From Betaproteobacteria bacterium (GTDB taxonomy: Bacteria; Pseudomonadota; Gammaproteobacteria; Burkholderiales; Rhodocyclaceae), in assembly GCA_009777245.1 (NCBI GenBank), contig WRMF01000001.1, positions 62,001-126,000 on the forward strand: DNA of 64,000 nt. Reading direction: 5' to 3'. The notes beneath the pieces were generated by a model. That model saw only the letters and a list, made by a program, of their open reading frames with translations. It ran no database searches and was not told the origin of the DNA. Positions 39,537 to 57,079 of this stretch are shown in pieces. The number at the start of each line of letters is the position of its first letter. The first letter of the stretch is position 1. The translations under genes were made by a program, and so were the position numbers.

Positions 39537-41390
39537 TCAAACCACCCGCTCTTTCACGTAACGCCCCGGAGCCGGTTCGATCGGACGATATTTGCTGTTG
39601 CCGTAAGTCTTGGTCGCGGCCTTTTCGCCATCGCCAAACCGCTTCAACCAGGCCGACCAGTTGTTCCACCAGCTTCCCTTGTTTTCCGTCGCGGCGGCAA
39701 GCCAGCCTTGCGCGTCGGCTTTCAGATCTTCGTTCGTCCAGTAACTCCGCTTGTTCTTGGAAGCAGGATTTACAACACCGGCAATGTGCCCGGAAGCGCC
39801 GAGAACAAAACGCGCCTCCCCGCTCAAAAGCCGGGTGCTCTGGTAGGCGGTGTGCCAGGGAACGATATGGTCTTCGCGCGAGGCCAAAATATAAACAGGC
39901 ATGTCAAGCTGACCGAGATCAACGCGCACTCCGCACATTTCCAGCTTACCGGGAATGCGAAGGAAGTTGTTGAAATACATGTTCCGCATGTACCAGCAGG
40001 CAAAGGGGCCGGGCAGGTTGGTGGAGTCGGCATTCCAGTAAAGAATGTCGAACGCTTGCGGCTTCTGCCCCTTCAGATAATTGTTGGTGACATAATTCCA
40101 GACCAGATCATTGGGACGCAGCATGGAAAAGGTGTTTTGCAGTTCCATCGCCTGCATCAGCCCGCCCTTGCCGATAGCCGCCTCCTTGGTGGCAAGGAAT
40201 TGCTCGTCAATGAAGAGGCTGATCTCGCCCGTATCGGAGAAATCCAGCATCGTAGTGAGCAAAGTCAGCGAGGCGGCGGGTTTTTCGCCCCGCCCCGCCA
40301 ATACCGCCAACGCCGAGGCAAGCATGGTTCCGCCCACGCAAAAGCCGACTGCGTTCAAATCTTTCCGTTTTGTTATCTCCTGCACGAGGCGAATCGCAGT
40401 GATCGGCCCTTTCTCCAGACAATCGTCCCAGGTCAATGCGCTCTCTTCCTTGCCCGGATTCTTCCAGGACACAAGGAATACCGTGTGGCCCTGCTCGACC
40501 AGAAAGCGAACCATCGAATTGTCCGGCTGCAAGTCCAGGATGTAAAACTTGTTGATACAGGGCGGCACGAAGAGAATCGGACGAGCGGCAACCTTGTCTG
40601 TGAGCGGCGCGTACTGAATCAACTGAATCACGCCGTTTTCAAAGATGACCTGCCCTTCCGTTATGGCAAGATTTCCGCCTACTTCAAAGACCGACTCGTC
40701 AGTCATGGCAATCCGGCCTTTTTCCATGTCGCTGATAAGATTGCCGATTCCGGCGGTGATGCTTTGCCCCTGGGTTTCCACCGCGAGCTTGATGACTTCC
40801 GGGTTGGTCGCCGCAAAATTGGTGGGCGACATGGCATCGGAGTACTGGCGGACGGCAAAGCGCAGCTTATCCTTGGCGCGCGTATCCTCGACCGGCAAGA
40901 CTTCCATCACGTCAAACAAATATTTCGAGTTCAGGAGATAGGTCTGGCGAATAAAGTCGTAAATCGGGCTGGATTGCCATTCCGGCGAGGAAAAGCGGCG
41001 ATCCGTCGCCTCCGCCTGAACGGAAAAGTCCGCCGACTGTCCGACGCTCTTGGCAAGCGTCGCCTGCCATAGCTTCGCCTGATTCTGGAACAGTTCATCC
41101 TGCAAGGCTTTCAGCGCGTCCGCCGTCTCCTTCGGATACTGCATGGAAGGCGGCAGAATTTCCGAAAGATCAGGCAACTGCGGCATTTGCGGCATTGCCG
41201 GAAAAGCCTGCATCTGCGGCATCTGCGGCACGGACTGCATCTGCTGCGCTAATTGCGGCATTTGCTGGAGAAATGAGGAAAACCCCTGCGCCATGCTTTG
41301 TCCAGCCTGGAAAAACTGCTGAAAAAACTCATTTTGCGTATTTTGCTGTCCGCCTTCCGCGCCGCCGGAACTCTTTGCATCCTCTGACAT
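39537..41390 (-). CDS. phaC: Class I polyhydroxyalkanoate synthase PhaC
   Basis: Polymerises 3-hydroxyacyl-CoA (mainly 3-hydroxybutyryl-CoA) into storage granules. The alpha/beta-hydrolase triad reads C351 in GFCVGG (lipase-box variant), D507 in SREDHIVPW and H535 in GASGHIAGVVNP. The PhaC N-domain (FIRQTYLLNSKYL) and the tryptophan-rich C-terminus (SWWNNWSAWLKRFG) are present. At 617 residues it is somewhat long because residues 41-75 are a Met-Pro-Gln repeat. phaA, phaB and phaR are not adjacent. Its transcript would start in the structured region to the right. Confidence 0.97.
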   Translation of the reverse strand: MSEDAKSSGGAEGGQQNTQNEFFQQFFQAGQSMAQGFSSFLQQMPQLAQQMQSVPQMPQMQAFPAMPQMPQLPDLSEILPPSMQYPKETADALKALQDELFQNQAKLWQATLAKSVGQSADFSVQAEATDRRFSSPEWQSSPIYDFIRQTYLLNSKYLFDVMEVLPVEDTRAKDKLRFAVRQYSDAMSPTNFAATNPEVIKLAVETQGQSITAGIGNLISDMEKGRIAMTDESVFEVGGNLAITEGQVIFENGVIQLIQYAPLTDKVAARPILFVPPCINKFYILDLQPDNSMVRFLVEQGHTVFLVSWKNPGKEESALTWDDCLEKGPITAIRLVQEITKRKDLNAVGFCVGGTMLASALAVLAGRGEKPAASLTLLTTMLDFSDTGEISLFIDEQFLATKEAAIGKGGLMQAMELQNTFSMLRPNDLVWNYVTNNYLKGQKPQAFDILYWNADSTNLPGPFACWYMRNMYFNNFLRIPGKLEMCGVRVDLGQLDMPVYILASREDHIVPWHTAYQSTRLLSGEARFVLGASGHIAGVVNPASKNKRSYWTNEDLKADAQGWLAAATENKGSWWNNWSAWLKRFGDGEKAATKTYGNSKYRPIEPAPGRYVKERVV

Positions 41391-41620
41391 AACAAACCTC
41401 CCGATTAATTAAAAGGTGATTCACAGTAAACCCCCGAATTCTCCTAGCCTGACCCTCGCCTGTCAACCGGAGCGTTTTTGCCAAAGATTCACCATTCATG
41501 GGAGCGACTCTTGCGTTTTCTTGCGCGAATCCATCCCTTTTGCGACCGGCACTCGATACGCCAGTTTTTGTTGCGCCGCAACAACGAGGGACGATATTCT
41601 TTTGTGCGGCGCATATAACC
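41391..41620. other. Intergenic phaC upstream region
   Basis: No gene is supported. It contains a perfect 8-bp hairpin TTGTTGCG-C-CGCAACAA at 41568-41584 and, at 41542-41549, one of several GACCGGC motifs that recur in the terminator at 41709-41757. The phaC promoter must be here but no clear -35/-10 pair stands out. Confidence 0.4.
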
Positions 41621-41649
41621 TTGTGCATATGCGGCATTTGGTGAATAAT
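41621..41649 (+). promoter_or_regulatory. Predicted promoter for an intergenic small RNA
   Basis: Plus strand TTGTGC (41621-41626), 17-base spacer, AATAAT (41644-41649). Transcription would start near 41656. It faces away from phaC, and no protein gene follows on this strand. Confidence 0.5.
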
Positions 41650-41655
41650 GCACCG

Positions 41656-41757
41656 CAACAAGGCTAGTCCTTGTGACGTTGTCTCCTCTCCACCTTTGTG
41701 TGGATTTTGCGCCGGTCGCGGTGTTGCTCCTTTCAGCTTGCGACCGGCGCTTTTTTT
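41656..41757 (+). ncRNA. Predicted small regulatory RNA between phaC and hisD
   Basis: About 100 bases on the plus strand, where both neighbouring genes are on the minus strand. The parts in order are: a small hairpin ACAAGG-CTAGT-CCTTGT (41658-41674); an unpaired C/U-rich stretch TCTCCTCTCCACC (41683-41695) complementary to Shine-Dalgarno sequences; and a strong terminator hairpin (41709-41750) whose 20-base loop holds GCTCCTTTC, a second anti-Shine-Dalgarno-like motif, followed by seven T. This plan is typical of trans-acting sRNAs that block ribosome binding. The 5-prime end is inferred from the promoter. No open reading frame of quality is present. Confidence 0.5.
41709..41757 (+). terminator. 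Strong rho-independent terminator on the plus strand
   Basis: Perfect 11-bp arms GCGCCGGTCGC and GCGACCGGCGC, then T7 at 41751-41757. On the minus strand the hairpin is followed by AAAATCC, so it is not a normal terminator for hisD. Confidence 0.85.
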
Positions 41758-41823: not shown

Positions 41824-43125
41824 TCATATTTCCATGCGGTATCTGGCCGAAGCTGCGTGGGCGGGCAGACCTTCGCCATCGGCCAGAATGCCTGCCACTT
41901 CTCCCAGATACTTCGCGCCTTCGCTTGATACCTCAATCAGGCTGGAGCGTTTCTGAAAGTCGTACACTCCCAATGGCGACGAAAAGCGGGCGCTGCCAGA
42001 AGTAGGCAGGACATGATTGGGGCCGGCGCAATAATCGCCCAAAGATTCAGAAGTATAAGCGCCGATGAAAATCGAGCCGGCATGGCGGATTTTTGCCACC
42101 CAGGACGCGGCGTCTTCCAGCGCCAGTTCCAAATGCTCCGGCGCTACCCGGTTGGAGACGCTGACGGCCTCTTCAAGATCGCGGACATGAATCATGGCTC
42201 CGCGCCCTTCCAGCGCCGCCCGAATGACCGTCTGACGCGGCATGGTCGGCAACAACCGTTCCATGCTGGCAAGCACGAGGTCAATGTAGTCTCTGTCTGG
42301 ACATACGAAAATACTCTGCGCCAGTTCGTCATGCTCGGCCTGGCTGAACAAATCCATCGCCATCCAGTCCGGATCTACGCTACCGTCGGCAAGCACGAGA
42401 ATTTCCGAAGGCCCCGCCACCATATCAATGCCGACAATGCCGAAAACCCGCCGCTTGGCGCAAGCGACATAGGCATTGCCGGGGCCTACGATCTTGTCTA
42501 CGCGGGGAATGGTTTGGGTTCCATAGGCAAGTGCGCCAATGGCCTGCGCTCCGCCAACGGCAAACATCCGATAAACCCCGGTAAGCTCGGCGGCGGCCAG
42601 CACCAGTAGGTTTCTTTCCCCATCCGGCATGGGCGCAACCATGATAAGTTCTTTCACCCCCGCGACGCGGGCGGGAATCGCGTTCATAAGCACCGAGGAA
42701 GGATAAGCGGCCTTTCCGCCCGGAACATATAGACCGACCCGATCAATCGGCCTCACCACCTGCCCCAGACGGATGCCGTTTTCTTCCGTGTAATCCCAGC
42801 CTTCCTGAATCTGATGCTCGTGAAAACGGCGAATTCGCGCTGCGGCTTCTTCCAGCGCCGACTTTTGCGCGGCTGAAAGTCCGTTCAAGGCGTTTATCCA
42901 TTCGGAACGGGGAATTTCCAACGCCGCCACATCTGGCGCGATAAGCCGATCAAAGCGTTCGGTGTAGGCCAATACCGCCTTGTCGCCCCTGCTTTTTACC
43001 TCGGCGAGAATATCCGCCACGGTTTTTTCGATAGCTTCATCCTGAGCGCTATCGAAAGCCAGAAGTTCATCCAGCCGCGCCGAAAAATCGGATTGGCTGC
43101 TGCAAAGTCGCCTGATATTCAACAT
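41824..43125 (-). CDS. hisD: Histidinol dehydrogenase
   Basis: Last two steps of histidine synthesis, oxidising histidinol to histidine with NAD in a zinc-dependent reaction. Key blocks: [62 protein letters not shown] and, near the end, [13 protein letters not shown], holding the zinc and catalytic histidines. The length of 433 residues is normal. It overlaps hisG by 7 bases; no other his genes lie in the window. Confidence 0.97.
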
Positions 43126-56559: not shown

Positions 56560-56925
56560 TTACTTCTTCTTGCCCGCGATTGCCTTGCGCGGCCCTTTAC
56601 GGGTGCGCGCATTGGTGCGGGTGCGCTGGCCACGGCAAGGCAAGCCCTTGCGATGGCGCAGACCGCGATAACAGCCAAGATCCATCAGACGCTTGACGTT
56701 CATGGTGACTTCGCGTCGCAAATCGCCTTCGACGGCAAATTTGCCGACTTCGTCGCGCAACCTGTCCATGTCGGCGTCCGACAAATCCTTGATTTTTGCG
56801 GAACGAACCACGCCAGCCGCATCGCAGATTTTCTGCGCCCGCGAACGACCAATGCCATAAATGGCGGTCAACGCGATTTCCGCGTGCTGGTGATTCGGAA
56901 TGTTTACCCCTGCGATACGGGCCAT
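56560..56925 (-). CDS. rpsM: 30S ribosomal protein S13
   Basis: 121 residues; [20 protein letters not shown] start, [16 protein letters not shown], and [20 protein letters not shown] with a lysine-rich tail. Contacts the P-site tRNA and the 50S central bridge. First gene of the classical alpha operon. Confidence 0.98.
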
Positions 56926-56965
56926 TGCTTCACTCCAACTATGTTGAAAAAAGGGACGACAAAAA

Positions 56966-57079
56966 TCAACCCTGACGTTGCTTGTGGCGCGGATCCTTGC
57001 ACAGGATGCGTACCACGCCTTTACGGCGAATCACCTTGCAATGGCGGCAGATTCGCTTGACCGAAGGCATTACTTTCAT
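56966..57079 (-). CDS. rpmJ: 50S ribosomal protein L36
   Basis: 37 residues, [20 protein letters not shown] and onward to [10 protein letters not shown]. The zinc ligands C-x2-C, C and H are all present, so this is the zinc-binding (C-plus) form. Located between infA and rpsM. Confidence 0.97.

Follow-up and report, generated by a model that had tools for sequence, protein, structure and literature searches.

PhaR-type sites in the promoter of a divergent RF02278 small RNA suggest a link between PHB storage and ribosome-site masking in betaproteobacteria

Described relatives and precedents

The Burkholderia RNAs ncS03, ncS05, ncS27 and ncS62 are double-hairpin RNAs of Rfam family RF02278, “Betaproteobacteria toxic small RNA” (PMC5688073). 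They share with the RNA analyzed here a UGUCUCCUC lead, a hairpin with GUGGAUU, a terminator, and CU-rich sites that face ribosome binding sites. Unlike these RNAs, the copy in our window (the whole 64,000-nucleotide stretch of Rhodocyclaceae DNA that was analyzed) falls below the gathering cut-off of the family, lacks CUCC in the loop of hairpin 2, and has CUCCUUUC within its terminator loop of 20 nt. The same conserved lead is found in S17 of Bordetella pertussis, which is transcribed from a sigma-A promoter and represses BP2158 and two other targets, with translation repressed through its Sites 1 and 2 (PMC11722255). RNase E cleavage of the 190-nt S17L yields a 67-nt RNA (PMC11722255), whereas the window RNA is approximately 102 nt and has an altered Site 2. 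The family itself is not new, having already been described in Rfam and in the Burkholderia and Bordetella literature.

The NmsR siblings of Neisseria (NmsRb, RF02877; RcoF/NgncR_163), which mask the ribosome sites of TCA-cycle mRNAs, resemble the window RNA in having three stem-loops, an exposed UC-rich anti-Shine-Dalgarno (anti-SD) sequence between stem-loops 1 and 2, and a second anti-SD motif. They are nearly identical tandem siblings under RelA control; in contrast, the window has a single copy at the locus, with PhaR boxes, and a partial copy on another contig.

For PhaR control of a small RNA (sRNA), the closest precedent is MmgR of Sinorhizobium meliloti (alpha-r8 group), a 77-nt sRNA that limits PHB, is repressed by PhaR/AniA, and is transcribed from a promoter containing a putative PhaR box (PMC12542648, PMC8401924, PMC9049629). 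MmgR belongs to another RNA family and another bacterial class, and its known targets are phasin genes. PHB riboregulation in Cupriavidus necator has been described in a review as undeciphered (PMC8401924), and our literature search, in which subscription journals were largely missing, turned up no previous account of a betaproteobacterial sRNA being controlled by PhaR.

The RNA unit between phaC and hisD and its family

An earlier note, made from the sequence of this DNA, proposed an unannotated sRNA between phaC and hisD. Its reading of the basic elements was borne out: both flanking genes are on the minus strand, and the plus strand has the promoter TTGTGC-17-AATAAT, a perfect 11-bp terminator hairpin followed by T7, and a CU motif in the terminator loop (Table 1). 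Along the predicted transcript the order is 5' hairpin, exposed UGUCUCCUCU, hairpin 2, and terminator, and none of 200 shuffled sequences folded as stably (z = -4.76). The note had described a small hairpin followed by an unpaired CU stretch. The hairpin and the exposed UGUCUCCUCUCCACC stand; however, part of the CCACC is paired: UCCAC (41689-41693) forms a stem with GUGGA (41700-41704), giving a second hairpin that had been overlooked and that is a hallmark of the family.

Table 1. Positions of genes, promoter elements, palindromes, and RNA features at the sRNA locus (window coordinates)
Feature	Position	Strand	Basis or remark
phaC	39537-41390	-	
phaC promoter candidate TTGACA-17-GAGAAT	41438..41466	-	Promoter scan; separate from the sRNA promoter
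PhaR-type palindrome A, TTGTTGCGCCGCAACAA	41568..41584	.	17/17 to YTKNTGCRNYGCANMAR
PhaR-type palindrome B, TTTGTGCGGCGCATATA	41601..41617	.	16/17, 1 mismatch; centre 12 bp upstream of -35
-35 element TTGTGC	41621..41626	+	Sequence
-10 element AATAAT	41644..41649	+	Sequence; 17-bp spacer from -35; sigma-70-like promoter, 41621-41649
Weaker palindrome C, ATAATGCACCGCAACAA	41645..41661	.	2 mismatches; over -10 and start site
Predicted sRNA, ~102 nt, divergent RF02278 member	41656..41757	+	Start inferred from promoter
5' hairpin ACAAGG-CUAGU-CCUUGU	41658..41674	+	Fold; also present in paralogue
Exposed anti-SD site 1, UGUCUCCUC (UGUCUCCUCUCCACC from 41680)	41680..41688	+	Invariant in genus/family alignment
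Hairpin 2, UCCAC-CUUUGU-GUGGA	41689..41704	+	Fold, alignment; short-loop subtype, loop without CUCC
Intrinsic terminator, perfect 11-bp stem (41709-41719/41740-41750), T7 (41751-41757)	41709..41757	+	Sequence, fold
Second CU motif GCUCCUUUC (GCTCCTTTC) in terminator loop	41726..41734	+	Sequence, fold
hisD	41824-43125	-	

In a focused scan the RNA scored 31.9 bits against RF02278 (E 1.1e-4), short of the 50-bit gathering cut-off, and a scan of the window at Rfam thresholds listed no match at the locus. The focused scan also gave 24.9 bits (E 0.082; threshold, 52 bits) for NmsRb (RF02877), the hairpin layout of which is shared by the window RNA. We also built a covariance model exclusively from relatives, using 24 genus and family members and omitting the window; it matched the window RNA at 40.5 bits (E 1.6e-8 when the window was searched, 5.2e-7 for the whole genome). 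The window RNA was the sole match to that model in the genome and the only credible RF02278 member found there. The layout is that of RF02278, namely, a UGUCUCCUC lead, a hairpin, GUGGAUU, and a terminator with a U-run; no position of UGUCUCCUC or GUGUGGAUU varies when genus and family members are aligned, and 8 of the 15 predicted pairs are changed on both sides among the relatives, nearly all of them in the terminator stem. The predicted RNA is a divergent member of RF02278, a betaproteobacterial sRNA family able to mask ribosome binding sites: divergent because the curated cut-off is missed, and a member because the structure, the lead sequence, and the relatives-only model all agree. The earlier note had left identity with a known family unclaimed, and the Rfam search now supplies one, albeit below the cut-off. 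The trans-acting, NmsR-like anti-SD plan that it favored is well supported by these two Rfam comparisons and by homologues in most same-family genomes: at an E of ≤1e-4, RF02278 was found in 108/121 genomes of the family and 134/250 of the order, and in 0/14 control genomes.

The unit was not flagged by simple promoter and terminator scans, the terminator being missed as its loop is longer than the 8 nt allowed. Taken alone, that result would suit a hairpin and promoter brought together by chance, without an RNA gene, a reading made barely credible by the whole-genome match to the relatives-only model, the folding score, and the conserved geometry, with TTG-17-ATAAT adjoining a palindrome in most relatives examined. 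Searching by DNA similarity alone across 61 relatives returned nothing beyond the RNA's own copies and a coincidental lipoprotein signal-peptide match. Named plasmid records searched with the consensus lead gave no match either, perhaps because low-complexity filtering removed the lead. The terminator-loop region (41712-41745) can be read as VAVLLLSACDR, resembling the end of a lipoprotein signal, and matches a lipoprotein-type gene in one genome (G035) with 87% identity over 36 nt, probably by coincidence.

The second CU-rich site expected in the loop of hairpin 2 is absent from the window RNA, in which that loop is CUUUGU and the terminator loop holds the second CUCCU motif; without the usual CUCC, this copy may act weakly. 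The genus is mixed in this respect, with CUCC in the hairpin-2 loop of some members and not of others. It could be argued that the window copy is a decaying family member whose promoter survives but whose RNA has lost its regulatory function, as the subthreshold score, the loop without CUCC, the enlarged terminator loop, and the partial copy elsewhere in the genome might indicate. We consider such decay unlikely, since the promoter, the PhaR boxes, UGUCUCCUC and GUGUGGAUU, and the perfect terminator are all intact, the same short-loop form occurs in four genus members (L010, L011, L013, and L026), and no other credible RF02278 member was found in this genome.

The placement of the RNA between phaC and hisD is not kept in relatives. 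By its phaC matches, the genome is close to Zoogloeaceae/Rhodocyclaceae MAGs, Azonexus, and Dechloromonas; in the nearest match (L208, phaC 84% identical) no RNA of this kind precedes phaC, and conserved synteny was rejected across L208-L216. In other species, RF02278 RNAs occupy varied positions, often beside an OsmC gene (26 of the 67 upstream neighbors scanned), and neither phaC nor phasin families were reported among those 67. The adjacency of sRNA and phaC is thus a local feature. We also rejected an action of the sRNA on phaC itself, as the pairing with the phaC ribosome site reaches only about -9 kcal/mol, which we take to be no more than any CU-rich RNA could achieve. Upstream of RF02278 loci in many genera, the neighbor found most often is an OsmC-type gene, an apparently conserved context in the order. 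Elsewhere in the window, on the minus strand, Rfam identified an Alpha operon ribosome binding site (RF00140, 45.8 bits) at 56893-57000.

PhaR-type sites in the promoter and across the order

The PhaR site of Ralstonia eutropha, deduced from footprint and EMSA work, is YTKNTGCRNYGCANMAR (PMC12849132). Three palindromes of this type lie in and around the sRNA promoter (Table 1), in the same arrangement as in the PhaR-repressed phaP1 promoter, where one box is located just upstream of the -35 element and another around the start (PMC12849132). Only four perfect matches to YTKNTGCRNYGCANMAR exist in the 2.15-Mb genome: at this locus, before the partial second sRNA copy, before an enoyl-reductase-type gene, and before a zinc-ribbon gene. 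The same genome encodes PhaR (PF07879, E 9e-30), and a one-mismatch box precedes an SDR gene, probably phaB, approximately 1 kb from the PhaR gene. The earlier note had found the position upstream of a carbon-storage gene suggestive. That adjacency is absent in L208; however, the hunch about carbon storage is probably right, because PhaR-type sites are present in the promoter, and it is there, not in the proximity of phaC, that the link probably lies. Boxes in this genome before the enoyl-reductase-type gene, two porins, and the probable phaB mark out a candidate PhaR regulon.

The association was examined across species by scoring a box as present when a sequence with ≤2 mismatches to YTKNTGCRNYGCANMAR occurred within 300 bp upstream of an RF02278 locus and by taking the PhaR DNA-binding domain (PF07879) as evidence of PhaR in the genome. 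A box was found at 37 of 41 loci of the genus and family. Among the 126 loci of the order-level sample, boxes occurred at 55/88 in PF07879-positive genomes versus 2/38 in PF07879-negative genomes (Fisher p 7e-10), a locus-level value that overstates independence because loci share ancestry. Counted by genome, the proportions were 50/70 and 2/30; counted by family, which is the safer test, they were 18/20 and 2/10 (p 3e-4). Box density was 2.5/kb upstream of the RNAs versus 0.08/kb in the flanks, and none of eight control palindromes was comparably enriched upstream of RF02278 RNAs. At loci with a callable promoter, the box was centred 12 to 16 bp upstream of the -35 element in 22 cases and lay over it in 10.

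The fit is not complete. One third of the loci in PhaR-positive genomes have no recognizable box, including all six in one family (f21, 0/6). On the other side, one of the two PhaR-negative exceptions with a box (G258) is 85% complete and has sister genomes in which PhaR is present, and a family member with no PhaR gene detected (G032) keeps a degenerate box, which may reflect recent loss of PhaR or an incomplete assembly. Binding of the palindromes by some other regulator that recognizes a PhaR-like site is improbable: the palindrome is short and PhaR binding here is putative, but the sites match the full 17-bp consensus and co-occur with PF07879 across families.

The palindromes might also serve phaC or another neighbor, with the RF02278 sRNA being real but not their object, since those in the window lie between the divergent phaC and the sRNA, and in some relatives another box, located some 155 bp farther upstream, could belong to the divergent gene. 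We regard this, too, as doubtful. Boxes A and C recur without phaC at the paralogue, before an ammonium-transporter-like gene; in relatives the box keeps a fixed distance from the sRNA -35 element whatever the neighbor; and the absence of the unit upstream of phaC in L208 and of reported phaC or phasin neighbors among the 67 argues in the same direction. Control of OsmC was rejected because the sites persist without that gene (in PhaR-positive genomes, 36/54 loci with OsmC and 19/34 without it have a box).

Taken together, the site evidence from approximately 165 related loci suggests that the RF02278 family is switched by PhaR, the PHB-granule sensor. RF02278/S17/double-hairpin sRNAs are probably direct PhaR targets in PHB-making betaproteobacteria, paralleling PhaR and MmgR in alphaproteobacteria, with lineages that have no detected PhaR gene keeping the RNA but not the site. 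It is the PhaR link, not the known family, that is new.

A second PhaR-type box, approximately 155 bp or, in some cases, 177 bp farther upstream than the first, was observed at seven loci (L004-L006, L009, L035, L045, and L059) and at others, about 240 to 280 bp upstream of UGUCUCC. Its recurrence suggests looping or the control of a divergent gene.

A model of induction by PHB and a partial second copy

We propose, with a probability of roughly 75%, that the window encodes a trans-acting RF02278 (double-hairpin/S17/NmsR-like) sRNA with a PhaR-blocked promoter, made when PHB accumulates and lowering the translation of selected mRNAs. From the sequence features, sigma-70 RNA polymerase would start at about 41656 and stop at 41757. 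When polymer is lacking, PhaR would occupy palindromes A, B, and C, which surround the -35 and -10 elements, and block the promoter. PhaR is known to give up its binding sites on DNA in favor of nascent PHB granules (PMC12849132), and by this known action granules would titrate PhaR away as PHB accumulates, so that the sRNA would be made. A promoter that is shut in the absence of polymer and open in its presence is the simplest interpretation. The sign of the effect is uncertain, because PhaR is also able to activate, as at phaP3 (PMC12849132). The exposed UGUCUCCUC, aided by GCUCCUUUC in the terminator loop, would then pair with purine-rich ribosome binding sites and, by analogy with tested relatives, lower the translation of selected uptake and catabolic mRNAs. 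The RNA would thus report the fullness of the carbon store to the translation machinery.

The Burkholderia double-hairpin RNAs rise 4- to 8-fold in glucose medium (PMC5688073), which is consistent with an inducing effect of excess carbon; that study called the reason for their accumulation unknown. For S17, repression of the promoter by an unnamed factor has been postulated (PMC11722255), and the PhaR sites in many species supply a named candidate for the factor behind these RNAs. If the proposal is true, a widespread RNA that blocks ribosome binding sites is under the control of a repressor that senses PHB granules, and polymer storage is connected with wide translation control, which would be useful for bioplastic production too.

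The partial copy (L002) lies on contig C21 of the same genome (G000:C21, approximately 42427-42555, minus strand). It carries the promoter, boxes A and C (the latter a 2-mismatch box at the equivalent position), hairpin 1, and CUCCUUUCC, and it forms the 5' leader of an ammonium-transporter-like gene, so labeled by eye from the translation and not by a family search. In the predicted fold of this leader, CGUUGUCUCCUU pairs with AAGGAG and with the start-codon region ACAAUG. The partial copy may be a former sRNA that now acts in cis as a PhaR-controlled leader, an arrangement that would be sensible for an ammonium transporter because PHB and nitrogen supply are linked.
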